Shown here one piece after another: positions 1,787 through 32,518 of a stretch of 33,195 nt of DNA (within the stretch, counting starts at the first letter, position 1; each line of letters begins with the position of its first letter). A program made the position numbers and the translations under genes. The stretch is from Candidatus Aadella gelida (GTDB lineage: Bacteria > Omnitrophota > Gorgyraeia > Tantalellales > Tantalellaceae). The stretch lies in assembly GCA_030765205.1 (NCBI GenBank), contig JAVCDB010000037.1, positions 1 through 33,195 on the forward strand, read 5' to 3'. Under the pieces are notes generated by a model. It was not told the origin of the DNA. It made no database searches and was given only the letters and a program-made list of their open reading frames with translations.

Positions 1787-1814
1787 TTGACTTTTAGGTG
1801 AAAAAGAGGACAAT
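1787..1814 (+). promoter_or_regulatory. Probable promoter of the pyr operon
   Basis: TTGACT at 1787-1792 is followed after 16 bp by GACAAT at 1809-1814, a sigma70-like pair with five of six and four of six consensus matches. Transcription would start near 1821, leaving about 140 nt of leader before pyrR, enough for the PyrR hairpin, leader ORF and terminator described separately. Confidence 0.4.
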
Positions 1815-1847
1815 GGTACTAGTAATTGGAAGAGATACCTTTTAAAG

Positions 1848-1863
1848 CGGTCCAGAGAGATCG
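1848..1863 (+). promoter_or_regulatory. PyrR-binding RNA hairpin (anti-antiterminator type)
   Basis: CGGTC (1848-1852) pairs with GATCG (1859-1863), one G-U pair included, closing the hexaloop CAGAGA (1853-1858). The PyrR site of Bacillus pyr leaders has a conserved CNGNGA hexaloop within a UCCNGNGAGG context; this hairpin matches the loop exactly and the flanking TCC and GAGA. It sits just upstream of pyrR, whose product is the expected ligand when bound to UMP. The hairpin ends four bases before the Shine-Dalgarno of the leader ORF at 1880. Confidence 0.7.
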
Positions 1864-1879
1864 AAAAAGGAGAAAAAAA

Positions 1880-1918
1880 ATGAAGAAAAACAAAAAATGC
1901 AGCCTACTTGTCGTTTGA
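1880..1918 (+). CDS. Putative 12-residue pyr leader peptide
   Basis: An ATG at 1880 follows a good Shine-Dalgarno AAGGAG (1867-1872) with 7-nt spacing and opens the frame MKKNKKCSLLVV, stopping at TGA 1916-1918. The last six codons run through the 5' arm and loop of the terminator hairpin at 1901-1928. A ribosome reaching the stop would therefore cover the 5' arm and prevent terminator formation, as in leader-peptide attenuators. The arrangement is visible; that it is translated is inference. Its role is probably regulatory, not as a stable peptide. Confidence 0.6.
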   Translation: MKKNKKCSLLVV

Positions 1919-1934
1919 CGGGGAGGCTTTTTTT
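1901..1934 (+). terminator. Intrinsic terminator / attenuator before pyrR
   Basis: AGCCT (1901-1905) pairs with AGGCT (1924-1928), and inside it CTTGTC (1907-1912) pairs with GACGGG (1917-1922), including two G-U pairs, around a four-base loop. Seven Ts (1928-1934) follow. This is a good Rho-independent terminator placed 30 nt before the pyrR start, so it must be read through for the operon to be expressed. Confidence 0.8.
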
Positions 1935-1963: not shown

Positions 1964-2503
1964 ATGACAGAACAATCACAAATATTAGATAAAGCAGGCA
2001 TAAAAAGGACCTTGATGAGGATATCTCATGAAATTATAGAGAAAAATCAGGGAACGGAATCTTTAGCGGTTATAGGGATAAAGACCAGAGGCGCATACCT
2101 GGCTGAACGTATCGCAAAGAATATAAAGGAGATAGAAGGGAACGAAGTCTCCGTAGGGGCAATAGATATTAATCTCTATAGAGATGATTTGACGGAAGTT
2201 GGAGAGCAGCCCGTGGTTCGGTCAACAGAGATCGATTTCGACATAAACAAAAAACGAATAATACTGGTAGATGATGTTCTTTTTTCCGGAAGAACCGTAA
2301 GATGCGCATTGGATGAGCTGATAGATTTTGGGAGACCCGAGACGATACAGTTAGCCGTCCTTGTTGATAGAGGGCATAGAGAACTTCCCATAAGGCCGGA
2401 TTTTGTAGGTAAAAACATACCTACTTCCAAAAAGGAAAGCGTAGAAGTAAGGCTAAAGGAAACGGATGACGAGGAAGAAGAAGTGGTAGTGGTTGGAGGA
2501 TGA
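1964..2503 (+). CDS. pyrR: Bifunctional pyr regulatory protein PyrR / uracil phosphoribosyltransferase
   Basis: PyrR binds pyr leader RNA when loaded with UMP and represses transcription; many members also make UMP from uracil and PRPP. The 179-residue length is typical. Family marks are [11 protein letters not shown] near residue 40, LYRDDL near 71-76, the PRPP-binding motif [11 protein letters not shown] at 101-111, and the [12 protein letters not shown] segment near 144-155. The start at 1964 has AGGAG at 1951-1955. It is the first gene of the operon, directly behind a hairpin that matches its own binding site and a terminator, so the operon is very likely autoregulated. The C-terminal tail is unusually acidic (DDEEEEE) before VVVVGG. 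Confidence 0.95.
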
Positions 2504-2524: not shown

Positions 2525-3490
2525 ATGAATACGACAGAAACCGTTAAATGGACAAAAAAGAATCTCTTGGGCATTCAGGACTTAAGTGCGGAGGAAATAT
2601 CGCTTATTCTTGACCAGACGAAGAATTTTAAGGAAGTTCTGGCAAGGTCGATACCAAAAGTGCCCGCACTCCGGGGGAAGACTATAGTGAATCTTTTCTG
2701 CGAAGCCTCCACGCGAACAAGAGCTTCTTTTGAGCTAGCGGCTAAAAGGTTAAGTGCGGATACATTGAGCGTTAACGCATCCACGTCAAGTTTTCTTAAA
2801 GGGGAGACCTTGAGAGATACAGCTCAAAACCTCGAAGCCATGAATATCGATATGATAGTTATGCGGCACGGATGCGCCGGAGCTACGAAGTTTCTCTCTA
2901 AATGCGTTAATGCCTCGGTGATCAACGCGGGAGACGGGATGCATGAACACCCCACGCAGGCGCTTTTGGATGTCTATACCATAAAAGAGAAGCTAGGAAA
3001 AATAAAAGGGCTTAACGTAAGCATAATAGGAGATATAGCGCATTCACGTGTAGCCAGAAGCAATATCTGGGCGCTAACAAAACTTGGCGCGAAAGTAAAG
3101 GTGTGCGGACCAAAAACTCTGATGCCGGATGAAATAGAAAAGATGGGATGCGAAGTAACATATGATTTAGGCAGCGCCCTAAAAGGGGCCGACGCGGTAA
3201 ACGTTCTAAGAATACAGCTTGAGAGACAAAAAAAATCACTATTCCCGACAACAAGAGAATATGTCCAGAATTTTGGGATCAACAGAGAAGTATTAGATAA
3301 ATATGCGAAAAAGGATATGCTTCTTTTGCACCCGGGACCGATAAACCGAGGAGTAGAGCTTAGTCAAGATGTTGCGGATTCAGAATATTCGGTCATACTT
3401 AACCAGGTGACCAATGGAGTAGCGGTAAGAATGGCCGTACTTTTTCTTCTGAGTCATGCTAAAGAACAAATAAAACCGAAAAACAAATAA
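2525..3490 (+). CDS. pyrB: Aspartate carbamoyltransferase catalytic subunit
   Basis: PyrB joins carbamoyl phosphate and aspartate to N-carbamoyl-aspartate, the committed step of UMP synthesis. The 321 residues include the carbamoyl-phosphate loop STRTR at 62-66, the HPTQALLD motif near 140-147, and the C-terminal [13 protein letters not shown] near 270-283, all diagnostic. A weak AAGGA precedes the ATG at 2525. It follows pyrR by 21 nt and precedes pyrC by 13 nt. No regulatory subunit gene (pyrI) is present, so the enzyme is probably an unregulated trimer, possibly associated with PyrC as in some bacteria; the last point is inference. Confidence 0.96.
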
Positions 3491-3503
3491 AACGGAGTAA
3501 AAT

Positions 3504-4781
3504 ATGAATATTTTGATAAAAAACGGTAGGATTATCGACCCGGCAAACGGAATAGATAAGAAGGGCGACATCTTAATAGAGAAAGGTAAGATAGTTAAAG
3601 TCGGAGAAAATATTAAGGCAAAGGATGCTGCTCTAATAGACGCTAAAGGGAAGATTTGCGCCCCCGGATTCATAGATATGCATACTCATTTAAGGGAGCC
3701 GGGAAGAGAAGACGCGGAAACAATAGAAACAGGCGTAAAAGCCGCGATTGCCGGAGGGTTTACAACGGTATGCGCTATGCCGAACACTACGCCGCCATGT
3801 GATGATCAGTCTATTGCCGAACTTATAATAAGAAAAGCGGAAGAGATAGGGCTAGCCAGAGTCGTTCCTATCGGGACAATAACAAAAGAAAGAAAAGGAG
3901 AGGAATTGTCTCAGATGGCCGAGATGAAAAAAGCGGGATGCAAGGCTATGTCAGACGACGGGGATACCGTGCAAGACGCCTCTCTTATGAGACGAGCTCT
4001 AGAATATGCTTCGATGATGGATCTTTTGGTTATTACGCATTGCGAAGATAAAGCGCTGGCCTCGGACGGAGTTGCTAGAGAAGGATACTATTCAACTATA
4101 CTGGGCTTGTCCCCCATACCGGCGGAAGCCGAAAGCACAATAGTCGAGCGAGACATACGCCTTGCGGAAAAGGCCGAAGCAAACATACATATAGCTCACG
4201 TATCTACGAGTAGCAGCATAGAAATAATTAGAGCTGCAAAAAAAAGAGGAGTTAAGGTAACTGCGGAAGTAACTCCTCATCACCTTAGTTTGCGAGACGC
4301 GGATCTTACGGAATACGATACTAATCTAAAAGTTAATCCACCGCTTGCTCCGGAAGAAGATGTAAAAGCATTGAAAATGGCGCTTAAAGACGGTACGATA
4401 GATGTCATTGCAACCGATCACGCTCCGCATCCCGAGAATGAGAAAGAAAAAGAATTTGACTATGCTCCGTTCGGGATGATAGGATTGGAAACTGCGCTGC
4501 CCGTAACAAGGAAAGCTCTTTTGGATGAGAAGCATCTAGAGTGGAACGAGCTCATAGAAAAGTTCACCTGTAATCCTGCCAGGATTTTGGGATTGGACAG
4601 AGGAACTCTTGGAGAAGGGAAGGCAGCGGACATAATAATCATCGATCCCGAAGAAGAATGGGTATACAAAAAAGAGGAGATAATATCAAAATCTAAAAAT
4701 TCACCTTTCGTAGGGAAAAAGATGAAGGGCAGGGTAACTGACGTTATCGTAGCCGGGAAACATGTTTTAAAGGGAAGCTGA
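3504..4781 (+). CDS. pyrC: Dihydroorotase
   Basis: This enzyme cyclises carbamoyl-aspartate to dihydroorotate. The 425-residue amidohydrolase fits the long type-I dihydroorotases. It has the metal-binding HTHLREPG with H60 and H62, and the ATDHAPH motif at 303-309 with catalytic Asp305. An ACGGAG Shine-Dalgarno precedes the ATG. It is tightly packed between pyrB (13 nt) and pyrK (9 nt). The metal residues look intact, so it is likely catalytically active and not a structural pseudo-dihydroorotase. Confidence 0.96.
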   Translation: MNILIKNGRIIDPANGIDKKGDILIEKGKIVKVGENIKAKDAALIDAKGKICAPGFIDMHTHLREPGREDAETIETGVKAAIAGGFTTVCAMPNTTPPCDDQSIAELIIRKAEEIGLARVVPIGTITKERKGEELSQMAEMKKAGCKAMSDDGDTVQDASLMRRALEYASMMDLLVITHCEDKALASDGVAREGYYSTILGLSPIPAEAESTIVERDIRLAEKAEANIHIAHVSTSSSIEIIRAAKKRGVKVTAEVTPHHLSLRDADLTEYDTNLKVNPPLAPEEDVKALKMALKDGTIDVIATDHAPHPENEKEKEFDYAPFGMIGLETALPVTRKALLDEKHLEWNELIEKFTCNPARILGLDRGTLGEGKAADIIIIDPEEEWVYKKEEIISKSKNSPFVGKKMKGRVTDVIVAGKHVLKGS

Positions 4782-4790
4782 GAAAAATAA

Positions 4791-5582
4791 ATGAAAAAAG
4801 TGATAAAGGGCATTATAAAAGAAAACAAAAACGTGGGAGCGGATCACTTCAGGATTACCGTAGAAGAGCCGCACATAAGCAGCACTTCTTGTCCCGGGCA
4901 GTTTGTTAACATAAAAATAGGAGACAGCGGCTCCTCTGAGCATCTCCTAAGAATACCGCTAGGAGTACACACGACAAGAAAGAACGAAACGAGTTTTCTG
5001 TATAAAGTTGTAGGAGAGGGAACAAGGGAGCTTAGCCGGAGAAAGAAGGGCGAAACATTAGACGTCCTCGGGCCCCTGGGGAAAGGATTCGATATATCAG
5101 GCTTAGAAGAGGGAAGCTGCGCTTTAATTGCGGGAGGAGGACATGGAGCCGCGCCTCTATACGGACTTGTAGAAAGCTTGACCAAAAAGAACATAAAAAC
5201 AGTTTTCTTTATGGGCGCATGTTCCGGAGACCATATTGTTCTGGAAGATGAGATCAAAAATCTCGGAGCGGAACTGATAATTTCGACAGACGACGGATCT
5301 TGCGGCACCAAAGGGTATGTTACGGAATCACTGGAAAAACATCTTACCCGAGACCCGAGACCCGAGACCCGAGAGACGATCTATGCCTGCGGACCTAACC
5401 CAATGCTGAAAGAAGTCGCGCGAATAGCGGAAACATATAAAATTCCCGCACAAACATCTATAGATGAATATATGGCATGCGGTATAGGGGCATGTCTCGG
5501 ATGCGCCGTGAAGACAAAAAATGGATACAAACTTGCATGTAAAGACGGGCCCGTCTTTGATGCACAAGAAATTGTGTGGTGA
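4791..5582 (+). CDS. pyrK: Dihydroorotate dehydrogenase electron-transfer subunit
   Basis: PyrK carries FAD and a [2Fe-2S] cluster and passes electrons from PyrD to NAD+. The 263-residue protein shows a ferredoxin-reductase fold: FAD-binding segment near 30-60, nucleotide-binding segment GGGHGAAPLYGL near 115-126, and YACGPNPMLK near 197. Four cysteines, C230, C235, C238 and C250, form the C-terminal cluster motif. An oddity is four perfect copies of ACCCGAG at 5346-5373 inside the gene. They encode a DPRPETRE-like loop just before YACGP and keep the frame. The gene ends 7 nt before pyrD, its functional partner. Confidence 0.95.
   Translation: MKKVIKGIIKENKNVGADHFRITVEEPHISSTSCPGQFVNIKIGDSGSSEHLLRIPLGVHTTRKNETSFLYKVVGEGTRELSRRKKGETLDVLGPLGKGFDISGLEEGSCALIAGGGHGAAPLYGLVESLTKKNIKTVFFMGACSGDHIVLEDEIKNLGAELIISTDDGSCGTKGYVTESLEKHLTRDPRPETRETIYACGPNPMLKEVARIAETYKIPAQTSIDEYMACGIGACLGCAVKTKNGYKLACKDGPVFDAQEIVW
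5346..5373 (+). repeat. Four tandem copies of ACCCGAG inside pyrK
   Basis: Four exact 7-nt units lie head to tail in the coding region of pyrK. The repeat resembles the heptamer arrays of the intergenic regions in unit length. It encodes a Pro/Arg/Glu-rich loop between the cofactor-binding motifs and leaves the rest of the protein in frame. Confidence 0.9.
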
Positions 5583-5589
5583 GAAAATA

Positions 5590-6525
5590 ATGGCAGACAA
5601 AAAAATGGAAATAAAAATAGGTGAAGCAGTCTTTAAAAACCCCATATGGGTAGCGTCCGGGACTTTCGGGAACGGTGAAGAGTTCCGGGACTTTGTTGAT
5701 CTCGAAAAAGTAGGCGCTATTATCACAAAGACGGTAACCTTAAATGCCAGAGAAGGAAACCCTCCGCCTCGAATAGTTGAAACGTCTTCAGGACTTCTTA
5801 ACTCAATTGGACTGGAAAACGGAGGGGTTGAGTTTTTCATTAAAGAGCACTTGCCTCTCTTAAAAAAAATAGATACAAGAGTGATTGTTAGTATAGCCGG
5901 CCAAGATGATGAAGACTTTGTAAAATGCACCTTGAAAATAATGGAAGGCGCTTTAGCGCCTGACGGAATAGAGGTAAACTTATCATGCCCCAACGTATCT
6001 CACGGCAAGACAAAGTATAGACTGTTAGCGCAGGACCCGAAAGGGACCGAAAGAATAATAAGAAAGATAAAAAAAGAGACTGATAAAATAATTATCGCAA
6101 AACTGTCACCAAACGTTACGGATATAGCCGAGATTGCCTATGCCGCCGAGCAAGGCGGCGCAGACGCTGTGTCACTAGTAAATACGTATCTCGGGTTAGC
6201 GGTGGACGCGAATGAAAGGAAACCTATTTTGGGAAACGTTGCCGGAGGATTAAGCGGCCCGGCAATAAAACCCTTGGCGTTAAGAGCGGTATGGGACGCG
6301 TATAAAAAGATCAAAATACCGATTATAGGGATAGGCGGAATAATGAACGGAACGGATGTGGCTGAATTTATGTTATGCGGCGCCCGGGCCGTTCAGATCG
6401 GGACGGCAAACTTAGCGTCACCCGATGCGTATGAAAGAATACTCGGAGAATTCGAAGATTATTTGGACAAACAAAAAATTGAAAAAGCAGAGAACCTGAC
6501 AGGAGCGTTAAAAGTAAAAGGATAG
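5590..6525 (+). CDS. pyrD: Dihydroorotate dehydrogenase catalytic subunit, class 1B
   Basis: PyrD oxidises dihydroorotate to orotate with FMN. The reading frame is open further upstream (to 5521), but that part overlaps the end of pyrK; ATG 5590 starts 7 nt after the pyrK stop and gives the usual N-terminus and a normal length of 311 residues. Seen are the substrate loop around NSIGLENGG, NLSCPNVSHG with the likely catalytic base Cys133, and the FMN-phosphate segments GGLSGPAIKP and GIGGIMNG. The adjacent pyrK makes this the NAD-dependent 1B heterotetramer. It is cytoplasmic, not the membrane class 2 enzyme. Confidence 0.95.
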   Translation: MADKKMEIKIGEAVFKNPIWVASGTFGNGEEFRDFVDLEKVGAIITKTVTLNAREGNPPPRIVETSSGLLNSIGLENGGVEFFIKEHLPLLKKIDTRVIVSIAGQDDEDFVKCTLKIMEGALAPDGIEVNLSCPNVSHGKTKYRLLAQDPKGTERIIRKIKKETDKIIIAKLSPNVTDIAEIAYAAEQGGADAVSLVNTYLGLAVDANERKPILGNVAGGLSGPAIKPLALRAVWDAYKKIKIPIIGIGGIMNGTDVAEFMLCGARAVQIGTANLASPDAYERILGEFEDYLDKQKIEKAENLTGALKVKG

Positions 6526-6533
6526 GAGAAAGA

Positions 6534-7247
6534 ATGGAAGCGAGAGAACGCCTTATAGTTGCACTTGATGTAAAAAATTATGAGCATGCAGTAGACCTGA
6601 TCGAAGAACTTGCTCCCGAAGTTGATATTTTTAAAGTAGGGATAGCGCCTTTCACATTATTTGGGGAAGCTATTCTGGACAAACTGGAATATGAAGGGAA
6701 AAAATGTTTTCTGGATCTTAAGTTTCATGACATTCCTAATACAGTTGCCAATGCTGCAAGATCTGCCATGAAAAGACGCATTTTTATGACGAACTTTCAT
6801 TGTTTAGGCGGAAGACATATGCTTGAAGCGGCTACTGAAGGGATAAAAGAAAAAGACGAAGGCGACACTCCTCCTATACTCTTAGGAGTTACTATTCTTA
6901 CAAGTATGAATGCATCAGAAATGAATGAATTGGGATTCGAAGGTAATCTTGAAGAAAAGGTACTTGATCTCGCGCATATGGCACAAGAATCAGGCCTTAA
7001 TGGTGTAGTTGCCTCGGCCCGGGAATCCAAGATGATAAAAGAACATTTGGGAGACGACTTTATTGTAGTTACTCCGGGCATCAGACCCGAATGGGCAAAG
7101 CAAGGTGACCAGAAGAGAATCTTGACCCCCAAGCAGGCCATTAAGGAAAAAGCTGATTATATTGTTGTGGGAAGGCCCATAATAGAAGCAGACGACCCAG
7201 CTGAGGCGGCAAGACGGATAATAGAAGAGATCGAAGAAGGTTGTTAA
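6534..7247 (+). CDS. pyrF: Orotidine 5'-phosphate decarboxylase
   Basis: PyrF removes CO2 from OMP to give UMP, the last step of the pathway. The 237 residues have the N-terminal LIVALDVKN, the catalytic LDLKFHDIPNT motif near 62-72 (Lys and Asp alternating), VVTPGIRP near 180, and the phosphate loop DYIVVGRPI near 212. The start is 8 nt after the pyrD stop, with GGAGAAAG as ribosome binding site. The gene precedes pyrE by 36 nt. Its lower codon bias towards A/T near the start is within the local norm. Confidence 0.95.
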   Translation: MEARERLIVALDVKNYEHAVDLIEELAPEVDIFKVGIAPFTLFGEAILDKLEYEGKKCFLDLKFHDIPNTVANAARSAMKRRIFMTNFHCLGGRHMLEAATEGIKEKDEGDTPPILLGVTILTSMNASEMNELGFEGNLEEKVLDLAHMAQESGLNGVVASARESKMIKEHLGDDFIVVTPGIRPEWAKQGDQKRILTPKQAIKEKADYIVVGRPIIEADDPAEAARRIIEEIEEGC

Positions 7248-7283
7248 GGAATAAAGCGTGCTACAAACAGAAAGGGTCAAAAG

Positions 7284-7862
7284 ATGCAAGAAAAAGAAGT
7301 CATTGAGATATTTGCTAAAATAGAAGCGTACAAGCAGGGGCATTTTAAACTTTCAAGTGGATTGCATTCGCCTTCATACCTGCAATGTGCATTGGTTTTA
7401 TCAAACCCGATAATAGCTGCAAAGCTGTGCTCAGCTTTAGCTAAAAAGTTCAGCATGGAAGAACCCGACGTCGTTATTGGGCCGGCCTTGGGAGGGATAG
7501 TATTTGCCTATGAAATGGCAAGAGCCTTTAAGGCGAGAGCTATCTTTTCTGAAAGAGACGAAAACGGAAAAATGACCTTAAGAAGAGGGTTTAGCGTCTC
7601 TCCGGGAAGCAAAGTACTGATTGCAGAGGATGTTCTTACCACGGGCGGTTCCGTCAAAGAGGTTATCGCGCTTTTAAGACAGGACGGGATCGAACCCGTT
7701 GCGGTTGCTGCATTAGTTGACAGAAGCAGTACCCCTTTGGATTTTGGTGGTATAAAATATAAAAGTCTGATAAAATTGGATGTTCCGTCTTTCGCGGAAG
7801 ATAAATGCCCTTTGTGCCAGGAAGGGATTCATATAGTTAAGCCCGGATCACGGAAAGAATAA
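7284..7862 (+). CDS. pyrE: Orotate phosphoribosyltransferase
   Basis: PyrE attaches ribose 5-phosphate from PRPP to orotate, giving OMP. The 192-residue protein has FKLSSGLHSPSYLQ near the N-terminus, a GPALGGIVFAYEMAR segment near 68-82, and the PRPP motif VLIAEDVLTTGGS near 110-122. It ends with two cysteines in CPLCQEG, a feature of the longer thermophile-type OPRTases. It closes the pyr operon. The downstream 110 nt show no clear terminator, so some read-through into the ATPase operon cannot be excluded. Confidence 0.94.
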   Translation: MQEKEVIEIFAKIEAYKQGHFKLSSGLHSPSYLQCALVLSNPIIAAKLCSALAKKFSMEEPDVVIGPALGGIVFAYEMARAFKARAIFSERDENGKMTLRRGFSVSPGSKVLIAEDVLTTGGSVKEVIALLRQDGIEPVAVAALVDRSSTPLDFGGIKYKSLIKLDVPSFAEDKCPLCQEGIHIVKPGSRKE

Positions 7863-27996: not shown

Positions 27997-30033
27997 ATGA
28001 AATTAAGCTACGAATGGATAAAAGAATATGTAAACATCGATGTTAGCCCGAAGACGCTTGCTGAAGGACTTACTTTATCCGGATCCGAAGTGGAGTGTGC
28101 TGAAGAAAAAGACGGAGATACCGTCATGAGTCTTGAAATAACGTCTAATAGACCGGATTGCCTAAATATGTTGGGACTGGCACGAGAAGTCTCCGCGGTT
28201 TTTGATGCCGAAGTAAAGCTTCCGGAGCTGACGGTTCAGAATGCGCCTAGTGAAGATCAAAAGAGCTCCGTTAAATGTGTTATCGAGAGCTCAGACTTAT
28301 GCCCATTATACACAGCGAAAATAATCAAGAATGTAAAGATAACTGAGACAAGTAAAAAAATAAAACGAAGACTTCTGTCTATAGGATCCCGCGCGGTTAA
28401 CAACATTGTTGATATTACCAACTATTGTTTAATGGAAACAGGTCATCCCTTACATGCTTTTGATCTTGATAAGATAGCTGGAGACACTATCTTTATTAGG
28501 GAAGCTGTGAAGGGGGAGAAGATCGTTACTATAGATGACGTTGAAAGAACTCTTAAAAAAGGCATGCTCGTTATAGCCGATAAAGATAAGCCCATAGCAA
28601 TAGCCGGCATTATGGGCGGGAAGCACGCGGAAGTCACGGAAAAAACAAAGAACATACTTCTTGAAAGCGCTTATTTTGATCCGCTTTCCGTAAGACATAC
28701 TTCCCGGGATCTCGCGCTTACAACTGATTCCAGCTATAGGTTTGAAAGAGGAGTGAACAAAGAGGGAGTTGAAACTGCTTCTTTGAGGGCGTCAGGATTG
28801 ATTTTAGAAGAAGCCGGAGGAGAAATAGAGTGCGCAATAAAAGAAGGGGAGATACGCGCCGAAAAGAATGTCGTTTCATTTGATTCCGTAAAAGCCGGGA
28901 ATATTCTAGGTGTAAAAATTGATCCAGAAGAGATAAAACGAATATTTTCTAGGTTAGGAATGAAGGTTACATCGGAAAAAGAGACTCTAACAGTTGAAGT
29001 CCCGGCCTTCAGGGAAGACCTTACCAGAGAAATAGATCTCGTCGAAGAAGCGGCAAGAATATATGGATACGAAAATATACCGGCCAAGCTAAATAGGTTC
29101 GTACCTCAAGTTAAAAGGAAAGAAAGGTCTCGCAAAACAGAGGAAAAGGTCAAAGATCTTTTAGTTTCTTCCGGGTGCAACGAAATAATGACATATAGCC
29201 TGATAAGCGAGGCGGCCGCGGAAAAGTTCAAGATGGTCTCTCAAGAAAAAGTAACTCTCATGAATTCTCTTTCAGAAGAGCAAAAAGTTCTTACTCCAAA
29301 TCTTATCGACGGTATGCTAAAAACGATTTCATGGAACCTGAATAGAAAAAATAGTGATCTCAGGCTATTTGAGTCAGGGAAAATCTATGTAAAAGAGAAA
29401 AAAGAGTTCGGTGAATACTCAGCTTTATGCATTGGAGCAACCGGGAACGCTCAAAGTAACTGGAAAGACGGATCAAGGAAAACCGGACTATACGATCTTA
29501 AAGGTCTTGTCGAAACGGTCCTTGACGGGTTATCTCTTGAGGCAGACTTTAGGCCCATCAAGATCAAGGGACTCGTAAATTGCGCCGGGATCAGTCTGGC
29601 CTCTGGAGGCAAAAAGTTAGGATTTCTGTGTGAGGTAGGAAGAGATATACTTGATTCATATGATATCAATCAAGAGGTATATGTTTGCCAGGTGAGGTTA
29701 GATAGTCTTGCAAAAGATGCCGCACTGAAAAATAAATACAAGGCAATTGATAAATTCCCGTCATCCGAAAGAGATATTTCCGTTCTCTGCGACGAGACGG
29801 TCTCCTCAGGCAGAATAATGGATGTTATCAAAAAAACCGGGGGCGACATGATTAGATCTATAACCTTCAAAGACATATATGAGGGAGAACAGATCCCTGC
29901 GGGCAAAAAGAGCCTTACATATAGCATAAATTATGGGCTGGATACACGTACCATAACAGATGAAGATACAGAAAAAACCAATAGTAAGATCAAAGACGCT
30001 TTGACCCGTCACCTGAAAGTTTCTTTCCGATAA
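27997..30033 (+). CDS. pheT: Phenylalanyl-tRNA synthetase beta subunit lacking the tRNA-binding OB domain
   Basis: PheT edits Tyr-tRNA-Phe and binds tRNA. The 678-residue protein is about 110-120 shorter than the 800-residue standard. After the start MKLSYEWIKEYVNIDVSPKTLAEGLTLSGSEVEC, the sequence passes directly to LEITSNRPDCLNMLGLAREVS (near 46-66), so the OB-type tRNA_bind domain is missing. The B3/B4 editing part, B5 and the C-terminal FDX-ACB domain (KFPSSERDISV near 587 on) are all present. The start is preceded by a weak AAAGGA. The loss is in-frame and clean, so the protein is likely functional. Confidence 0.93.
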   Translation: MKLSYEWIKEYVNIDVSPKTLAEGLTLSGSEVECAEEKDGDTVMSLEITSNRPDCLNMLGLAREVSAVFDAEVKLPELTVQNAPSEDQKSSVKCVIESSDLCPLYTAKIIKNVKITETSKKIKRRLLSIGSRAVNNIVDITNYCLMETGHPLHAFDLDKIAGDTIFIREAVKGEKIVTIDDVERTLKKGMLVIADKDKPIAIAGIMGGKHAEVTEKTKNILLESAYFDPLSVRHTSRDLALTTDSSYRFERGVNKEGVETASLRASGLILEEAGGEIECAIKEGEIRAEKNVVSFDSVKAGNILGVKIDPEEIKRIFSRLGMKVTSEKETLTVEVPAFREDLTREIDLVEEAARIYGYENIPAKLNRFVPQVKRKERSRKTEEKVKDLLVSSGCNEIMTYSLISEAAAEKFKMVSQEKVTLMNSLSEEQKVLTPNLIDGMLKTISWNLNRKNSDLRLFESGKIYVKEKKEFGEYSALCIGATGNAQSNWKDGSRKTGLYDLKGLVETVLDGLSLEADFRPIKIKGLVNCAGISLASGGKKLGFLCEVGRDILDSYDINQEVYVCQVRLDSLAKDAALKNKYKAIDKFPSSERDISVLCDETVSSGRIMDVIKKTGGDMIRSITFKDIYEGEQIPAGKKSLTYSINYGLDTRTITDEDTEKTNSKIKDALTRHLKVSFR

Positions 30034-30218: not shown

Positions 30219-30224
30219 AAACAG

Positions 30225-30375
30225 GTACTGTTTAGTTCGTGAAGTGGGAAATAGAATTTGACCAACACTTTATTTTGGGGAACCTAACTTTGGGTGTTCT
30301 TTAAGGGCGCCCAAGAGGGTACCCACCTGGGATACCAGGTCGCAATTCTCTTCCTGTGCACGGCTAAATGGTTTG
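30225..30375 (+). ncRNA. ssrS: 6S RNA-like small RNA
   Basis: The predicted transcript folds into one long rod. Helices from the base inward: TTTAG (30231-30235) with CTAAA (30364-30368); CGTG (30238-30241) with CACG (30359-30362); GGAA (30247-30250) with TTCC (30351-30354); AGAATT (30253-30258) with AATTCT (30344-30349); GACC (30260-30263) with GGTC (30338-30341); then AACAC (30264-30268) with GTGTT (30294-30298), leaving a large asymmetric inner region. 6S RNA is such an interrupted rod of about 150-200 nt that mimics an open promoter and binds RNA polymerase. The GACC-ACAC-GGGGAACCT order also resembles 6S RNAs I remember from proteobacteria. In E. coli ssrS lies next to a 5-formyltetrahydrofolate cyclo-ligase gene; one lies 2.2 kb downstream here. 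Not verified by a covariance model. Confidence 0.58.
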
Positions 30376-30400
30376 GGGCCGGATTCGTCCGGCCCTACTA
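30376..30400 (+). terminator. Stable UUCG hairpin ending the 6S-like RNA
   Basis: GGGCCGGA (30376-30383) pairs with TCCGGCCC (30388-30395) around a TTCG tetraloop, 8 bp of mostly G-C. The following TACTATTT is only partly T-rich, so it is a less-than-ideal intrinsic terminator, but position and stability fit the 3' end of the small RNA. Confidence 0.6.
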
Positions 30401-31149: not shown

Positions 31150-31370
31150 TGGAAGACCAGGTAAAACAAGCTATAGAAAAAGTGCGTCCTTTACTTCAGA
31201 GAGATGGGGGAGACGTAGAATTTGTTGCGCTGGAAGGCGCTGTTGTTAAAGTGAGATTAAAAGGCGCTTGCTGCGGATGTCCAATGAGTCAGATGACCTT
31301 AAAAAGCGTTGTCGAAAAGACTATTAAAGAAGAAGCTCCAGGAGTAGAATCTGTTGAAACCGTGACGTGA
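31149..31370 (+). CDS. NifU C-terminal-domain Fe-S scaffold protein
   Basis: Proteins of this type carry a transient Fe-S cluster between subunits. The 73 residues match the NifU C-terminal domain alone: LLQRDGGDVEFVALEGAVVKVRLKGAC and the cluster pair C41 and C44 in ACCGCPMSQMTLK, with an extra Cys42. It starts on the last base of rseC and ends just before the cysteine desulfurase, which supplies its sulfur; the context makes a scaffold or carrier role very likely. Confidence 0.93.
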   Translation: MEDQVKQAIEKVRPLLQRDGGDVEFVALEGAVVKVRLKGACCGCPMSQMTLKSVVEKTIKEEAPGVESVETVT

Positions 31371-31372
31371 TT

Positions 31373-32518
31373 ATGAAAACCATATATTGCGACGCGAATG
31401 CGACCACGAGGTTAGACCCTGAAGTGCTTCAGGAAATGATGCCTTTTTTGACTGAAAAATACGGGAACCCTTCAAGCATACATGCTTTGGGGAGAGACGC
31501 GAAAAAGTATCTGTCAAAAGCCAGAAGACAAGTAGTAGCGCTTATTCAGGCAGAATCCCCCGAAGAAATAGTATTCACTTCAGGCGGTACCGAATCCGAC
31601 AATCTTGCTATAAAGGGCACAGCCGAACGCCTTAAAGAAAAAGGCGGGCATATAATAACTTCAAGCGTCGAGCATTCAGCTGTTCTAAATACTTGCAGAG
31701 CTCTTAATGAAAAAGGATATAAGGTTACCTATCTTAAGGTGGACGAGTTTGGTCTGATTGATCCGGATGAACTTCGCGAGAAAATCGGAGAGAAAACTAT
31801 ACTTGTCACTATCATGACAGCTAACAACGAAACCGGAACTATTTTACCAGTTGAGGAGATCTCTTCTATAGCGAGTGCGCAAGGAGTGCTGTTTCATACA
31901 GATGCAGTGCAGGCCGCGGGAAAGATTCCGGTGACAGTAAAAGGTAAGGGGGTTGACATGATCTCCTTATCTTCACATAAGATAAACGGACCAAAAGGCG
32001 TAGGTGCGCTGTACGTGAAGGAAGGCACCAAGATAAGCGCCCTGCATAGCGGAGGGTATCAAGAAAGCGGCCGAAGGGCCGGGACAGAGAACCTTGCAGG
32101 AATAGTTGGGTTCGGGAAAGCATGTGAGGTAGCATTAAAAAATTTGGACAAAAGATCTTTAAAAACAAAAAAGCTGAGAGATATGCTTTTCGAGGGCATA
32201 AAAGAGCATATTGGCGGAGCAGAACTTAATGGGCATATTAGCGAAAGGCTCCCGAACACTCTAAATATTAGTTTCAGGGGCATAGAGGGAGAATCTTTAG
32301 TCAGGGCGATGGACCTTGAAGGGATATATGCCGGAGCAGGTTCGGCATGTAAGGCAGGAAGCCCTGAGGCGTCGCATGTTCTTGAAGCTATGGGGCTTTC
32401 TCCCGAAAGAGTGAGAAGTGCGGTAAGATTTTCTGTCGACAAGTTCAACTCCGAAGAAGATATAAGTGAGATTATTAGGAAGTTACCAGGCATCGTAAGC
32501 AGGATAAGAGACTTATAA
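31373..32518 (+). CDS. nifS: Cysteine desulfurase, NifS/IscS family
   Basis: The PLP enzyme takes sulfur from cysteine for Fe-S clusters and tRNA thiolation. ATG 31373 follows the NifU stop by 2 nt; a GTG at 31367 overlapping that stop is an alternative. The 381 residues have the N-terminal YCDANATTRLDPEVL, FTSGGTESDNLAI near 62-74, VEHSAVLNT, the PLP lysine Lys203 in SSHKINGPKG, and the persulfide Cys326 in GSACKAGSPEASHVL. Loop length between Cys326 and SHVL suits group I (IscS/NifS). Its proximity to the NifU-type scaffold suggests a dedicated Fe-S pair. Confidence 0.95.
   Translation: MKTIYCDANATTRLDPEVLQEMMPFLTEKYGNPSSIHALGRDAKKYLSKARRQVVALIQAESPEEIVFTSGGTESDNLAIKGTAERLKEKGGHIITSSVEHSAVLNTCRALNEKGYKVTYLKVDEFGLIDPDELREKIGEKTILVTIMTANNETGTILPVEEISSIASAQGVLFHTDAVQAAGKIPVTVKGKGVDMISLSSHKINGPKGVGALYVKEGTKISALHSGGYQESGRRAGTENLAGIVGFGKACEVALKNLDKRSLKTKKLRDMLFEGIKEHIGGAELNGHISERLPNTLNISFRGIEGESLVRAMDLEGIYAGAGSACKAGSPEASHVLEAMGLSPERVRSAVRFSVDKFNSEEDISEIIRKLPGIVSRIRDL

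Follow-up and report, generated by a model that had tools for sequence, protein, structure and literature searches.

The window, by which we mean the whole stretch of 33,195 nucleotides that was analysed, belongs to an Omnitrophota genome assembly of 1.59 Mb in 113 contigs, to which Candidatus Omnitrophota genomes are the nearest named relatives, and carries the pyr operon pyrR-pyrB-pyrC-pyrK-pyrD-pyrF-pyrE, each gene of which was identified by an NCBIfam match. The pyrR product scores above the curated cut-off of the PyrR family, and the solved structure closest to it by sequence is 1UFR, a pyr mRNA-binding attenuation protein (E 3e-64). The sequence ahead of pyrR contains, from 5' to 3', a probable promoter, a PyrR hairpin, a Shine-Dalgarno sequence, an open reading frame of 12 codons and an intrinsic terminator:

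1787..1814, forward strand: probable sigma-70 promoter (TTGACT, 16 nt, GACAAT; 9/12 consensus match)
1838..1870, forward strand: predicted PyrR-binding hairpin (RNA fold, RF00515, class model R1, covariation)
1838-1843/1865-1870, forward strand: lower stem of the hairpin, CCUUUU/AAAAGG (RNA fold)
1844-1847/1864, forward strand: purine-rich internal loop of the hairpin, AAAG/A (RNA fold)
1848-1852/1859-1863, forward strand: upper stem of the hairpin, CGGUC/GAUCG (RNA fold)
1853-1858, forward strand: CAGAGA hexaloop (RNA fold)
1867..1872, forward strand: Shine-Dalgarno sequence AAGGAG of the leader (sequence, fold)
1880..1918, forward strand: leader open reading frame of 12 codons, MKKNKKCSLLVV (ATG at 1880, TGA at 1916-1918)
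1901..1934, forward strand: intrinsic terminator (stem 1901-1912/1917-1928, T-tract of seven T at 1928-1934)
1964..2503, forward strand: pyrR, pyr mRNA-binding attenuation protein / uracil phosphoribosyltransferase (254.9 bits against NCBIfam NF003549, for which the cut-off is 138)
2525..7862, forward strand: pyrB, pyrC, pyrK, pyrD, pyrF and pyrE, the controlled operon (NCBIfam matches)

PyrR is present in 74/79 relatives, and 70 regions upstream of pyrR, that of the window included, were extracted. A pattern search found the hairpin in 65 of these leaders and a covariance model added one more (L026); counts that involve the terminator refer to the 61 leaders of the class that have one. The promoter at 1787-1814 is probably of the sigma-70 type. 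Taken alone, a match of 9/12 is weak, and a promoter of at least this quality is found at the corresponding place in 61/65 leaders against 10 in shuffled sequences, with a median of 17 nt between the -10 box and the PyrR hairpin. From its position we infer that transcription starts near 1821. Upstream of this promoter, Pfam and NCBIfam searches gave no match for an open reading frame of 452 amino acids (129-1487). Elsewhere in the window, a 6S RNA at 30222-30378 exceeds the Rfam gathering score with 59.7 bits and is flanked by long open reading frames at 27997-30033 and 31367-32518, while a match to RF02980 (freshwater-2) scored far under its threshold and was discarded as chance.

The binding of PyrR needs the hexaloop, the top of the upper stem and a purine-rich internal bulge (PMC7430163), and the properly folded hairpin in the window has the CAGAGA loop, the UCCAGAGAG core and the AAAG internal loop. 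Against the Rfam model RF00515 (PyrR), the stretch 1834-1935 scores 44.1 bits (E 7e-5), short of the curated gathering score of 54 bits; of five named control genomes with a match, only two reached this score, which is therefore to be taken as a stringent cut-off and not as a property of the biology. Genome-wide, RF00515 gave six weak matches, among which the pyr leader was the best and the next had 29 bits. Against R1, the covariance model built from the class, the window hairpin scored 44.2 bits, and the class model matched 65/77 of the relatives' genomes, nearly all with a single site. Over 65 distinct hairpin sequences there were 57 double-sided changes, compared to 16.5 after shuffling, and 96% of the cells in the hairpin alignment were paired, compared to at most 68% when the alignment was slid. 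By its structure, position and covariation the hairpin is thus assigned as the predicted PyrR site, below the Rfam threshold. The preliminary description had recognised a PyrR site in the CAGAGA hairpin and placed it at 1848-1863. The identification is borne out by the hexaloop, the RF00515 match and the covariation, and the upper stem-loop stands as described, whereas the full extent does not, since folding adds a lower stem and the hairpin runs from 1838 to 1870.

The lower stem changes the relation between the hairpin and the ribosome-binding site. It had been proposed that the hairpin ends 4 nt before the Shine-Dalgarno sequence, and this has to be given up, because in the fold of the window, and likewise in the class, the AAGG of the Shine-Dalgarno (1867-1870) is itself the 3' strand of the lower stem. 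In the modelled nascent RNA of the window this AAGG pairs with the CCUU strand at a probability of 0.94. PyrR would consequently lock the Shine-Dalgarno directly and not block it from upstream. Even without protein the hairpin hides the site, the AAGG being unpaired at only 0.31 in the window and at a mean of 0.14 in the class, and a ribosome would therefore have to open the hairpin. AAGG also belongs to the general consensus of PyrR sites; Bacillus velezensis has it with no start codon behind it. For this reason the Shine-Dalgarno alone is weak evidence, and the start codon and the open frame have to carry the argument for translation.

Both are conserved. The preliminary description had named a lack of conservation of leader start and Shine-Dalgarno in relatives as a finding that would speak against it, and the comparison gave the opposite: hairpin, Shine-Dalgarno and leader start are kept in 65/65 hairpin-carrying leaders, and the start codon (ATG in 58, GTG in 7) always lies 6-12 nt past the AAG of the stem, with ATG at this position in 58/65 leaders compared to 8.8 in shuffled sequence. 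From the start codon to the terminator arm the median distance is 23 nt. Over this distance the leader frame is free of stops up to the 5' arm of the terminator in 60/61 leaders and interrupted in 1/61 (L050 is a leader with a stop just ahead of the arm), while the other two frames are interrupted in 30/61 and 36/61, close to the 29.7 +/- 3.6 of shuffled sequences (Fisher p 3e-14 for stops in frame versus the other frames). Giving one vote to each of 32 families, the stops amount to 0.5 in frame versus 15.5 and 21.8. The openness of this one frame compared to the other two indicates that it has been selected for translation into the terminator. The peptide itself is not conserved and the frame in which the terminator is read varies; among members of the window's family, the conserved arm GCCTGCTTGTC encodes SLLV or ACLS depending on the frame of the leader. 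This points to the act of translation as what matters, and the product of the leader seems unimportant. A control by peptide-specific stalling was rejected on the same grounds.

The terminator agrees with the preliminary description, which gave it a stem of 11 bp: it forms at 1901-1928 with one mismatch (A1906/G1923), a GUUU loop at 1913-1916 and the T-tract behind it, and its fold of -14.3 kcal/mol has a z of -3.16 against shuffles. A terminator with a T-tract is found at the corresponding place in all 61 leaders. Also as described, the Shine-Dalgarno is followed by a 12-codon frame whose stop codon, at 1916, lies inside the terminator; the frame starts with the ATG at 1880, and the final loop nucleotide is the first of its TGA. 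This geometry is in the minority, with 16 leaders (the window included) ending inside the terminator hairpin and 44 running past it.

Among leaders that extend beyond the terminator and have pyrR close by, 28/37 have their stop between -14 and +12 nt relative to the pyrR start, whereas the other frames give 15 and 9 (p 2e-5). Eight of these 28 stops overlap the pyrR start by -4 or -1, ATGA-type overlaps included. This pattern suggests that many relatives combine attenuation with translational coupling to pyrR. One could go further and suppose that control is translational only, with PyrR blocking the leader Shine-Dalgarno, the leader coupled to pyrR and 1901-1928 irrelevant as a terminator. 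The clustering of leader stops at pyrR agrees with this, and so do five upstream regions that carry the hairpin, Shine-Dalgarno and start directly on pyrR, with no leader frame and no terminator (L036 and L065, from one Omnitrophota family, and L147, L144 and L155). These five apparently represent direct translational repression, in Omnitrophota and in Acidobacteria-type genomes. A likeness to Mycobacterium smegmatis can also be adduced, for which PyrR-dependent translational repression is reported (Fields and Switzer 2007, cited in PMC13328217). There the PyrR hairpin reportedly overlaps a ribosome-binding site and sits on the operon itself, a layout shared by the five direct forms, whereas in the window the hairpin sits on a leader frame and a terminator intervenes. 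Moreover, the leader of the window stops 45 nt before the pyrR start, too distant for close coupling, so that coupling to pyrR does not apply to the window. Since 61 leaders retain a hairpin with a T-tract at this position, termination is very likely involved, and we regard purely translational control of the window operon as quite improbable.

A second alternative is the mechanism of Bacillus, in which the PyrR hairpin is an anti-antiterminator, an antiterminator pairs the 3' half of the hairpin or the linker with the terminator arm, and the leader frame would be incidental. B. subtilis PyrR works in this way (PMC7430163), and the protein family and the hairpin type are shared. The likeness to B. 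subtilis and B. velezensis (RF00515) extends to the hexaloop, the purine internal loop, a lower stem of the CCUUU/AAGG type and an intrinsic terminator downstream. We modelled the nascent RNA by computing the ensemble up to, and without, the 3' arm of the terminator. Under these conditions the hairpin of the window stayed at 0.94, unchanged, and the pairing probability between arm and hairpin was 0.00. Across the 61 leaders the mean for the hairpin was 0.79 in the nascent RNA compared to 0.92 for the hairpin alone, and a drop of more than 0.5 occurred in 6/61. In B. velezensis, used as the positive control, the lower stem fell from 0.83-0.98 to 0.00 in all three attenuators. Complementarity between the 3' half of the hairpin and the terminator arm was at chance level (mean z -0.11 over the 61 leaders). 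An antiterminator between linker and arm was likewise dismissed, as the arm paired to the same degree with upstream sequence (0.38) and with shuffled linkers (0.40). The hairpin lies close to the predicted 5' end, leaving little upstream sequence for another partner. A competing antiterminator was thus found neither in the window nor conserved across the 61 leaders, as had been stated earlier for the window from inspection of the sequence. The Bacillus scheme also leaves the conserved start codon and the open frame unexplained; the B. velezensis pyrR leader has no such frame.

Arm-hairpin pairing is strong (0.63-0.77) in three leaders from Chloroflexi/SAR202 (L131, L136 and L151), where a GGCAA in the 3' half of the hairpin is complementary to CCTTGCC in the 5' arm of the terminator. 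These appear to be attenuators of the antiterminator type outside the Firmicutes. For the window we consider control of this type very unlikely. A Clostridia bacterium (L106) has a leader frame, MNIVVYSWYIMPSY, with its stop in the terminator loop, together with strong antiterminator pairing; this is possibly a hybrid or a coincidence, and it was left out as evidence for either side.

In pyrBI of Escherichia coli and Salmonella, a leader frame runs into or through the attenuator and the ribosome prevents the terminator from forming, the sensor being UTP-dependent pausing of the polymerase. That polymerase pausing at low UTP, or stalling by the nascent peptide, sets termination in the window with PyrR in a secondary role is the least probable reading, since a short leader frame into the attenuator before pyr genes is what the two have in common, while the region from start codon to terminator (1880-1900) is A-rich with no U-run and hence no pause region of the pyrBI type, and a conserved PyrR site, the sensor we propose here, is present.

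We conclude that pyrRBCKDFE is very probably controlled by a PyrR-gated, translation-coupled transcription attenuator. The hairpin, the Shine-Dalgarno inside it, the conserved start, the open frame and the lack of an antiterminator come from the sequence and its comparison with relatives; that PyrR-UMP binds, that the leader is translated, that ribosomes load in time and that the operon is regulated as a result is what we infer from them. When UMP is ample, PyrR-UMP would bind and stabilise the hairpin at 1838-1870 and so close the leader Shine-Dalgarno. No ribosome would then load, the untranslated RNA would fold into the terminator at 1901-1928 and RNA polymerase would stop before pyrR. When UMP is low, a ribosome would open the unbound hairpin, translate the leader and, on reaching the stop codon by the terminator loop, cover the 5' arm of the terminator, which would not form, and pyrRBCKDFE would be transcribed. 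In relatives whose leader frame runs through the terminator, the same ribosome may pass on to pyrR. That UMP-PyrR keeps ribosomes from entering had been suggested before, and the part that stands is the gating of the Shine-Dalgarno, in line with the retention of start and Shine-Dalgarno in every hairpin-carrying leader; a block from upstream does not fit a Shine-Dalgarno that lies in the lower stem. The proposed covering of the terminator arm by a ribosome is supported by the frame that is open into the arm in nearly all leaders. The T-tract follows about 50 nt after the leader start codon, which would give a ribosome little time to load. Each pyr attenuator of Bacillus has a NusA-stimulated pause (PMC7430163).

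The arrangement is not restricted to pyrR or to this phylum. One relative (G063) carries the entire module a second time, ahead of carB (L160, G063:C3:5000-8000, 451-660), with the PyrR hairpin, the same Shine-Dalgarno, a leader frame, MIDCNEKITGIRPTRDNGQVIFLPFFDGRYIK, and a terminator, and by this copy the module is portable within the predicted regulon. Outside the phylum, some loci of Zixibacteria (L097, L115), Nitrospirae (L114, L135) and WOR-3 (L117, L123) likewise combine a leader frame with a terminator.

A literature search found no description of PyrR control in Omnitrophota. For Thermus strain ZO5, Van de Casteele and coworkers reportedly proposed in 1997 a system of a PyrR site, a leader ribosome and a terminator with no antiterminator. 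In that system pyrR is the first gene, the PyrR site is followed by a leader frame and a terminator, and a translating ribosome was proposed to prevent the terminator. The window has the features of this type, namely a PyrR site overlapping the ribosome-binding site of the leader, a frame running into the terminator and no antiterminator. The principle has thus reportedly been proposed before, and the window would be a further case of it. The Thermus case is one leader from a distant phylum, whereas the scheme in Omnitrophota rests on more than 60 genomes; here, in addition, one strand of the hairpin is seen to be the Shine-Dalgarno, and in many leaders the frame extends as far as the pyrR start. 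What we add is class-wide evidence for selection on the leader frame, the Shine-Dalgarno as a hairpin strand, the tendency of leaders to reach pyrR, and the direct and antiterminator forms found alongside in relatives.

To our knowledge, the idea that PyrR acts through a ribosome on a leader has until now been proposed from the one Thermus leader only. With a conserved start and open frame over about 30 families, and an antiterminator excluded against a positive control, the present scheme is the best-supported account of pyr control for a large uncultured class. Since the lower stem resembles a Shine-Dalgarno, the same hairpin can switch its output between antiterminator competition, translation-coupled termination and a direct block of translation. 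Tentatively, and with somewhat less than even confidence, we suggest a class-wide module whose single ribosome would prevent termination and then be handed over to pyrR. This module is portable, as the carB copy illustrates, and may interconvert with direct repression inside the class and, from one phylum to another, with antiterminator control. Across much of the bacterial tree, PyrR would then normally act through leader translation and not through an antiterminator.
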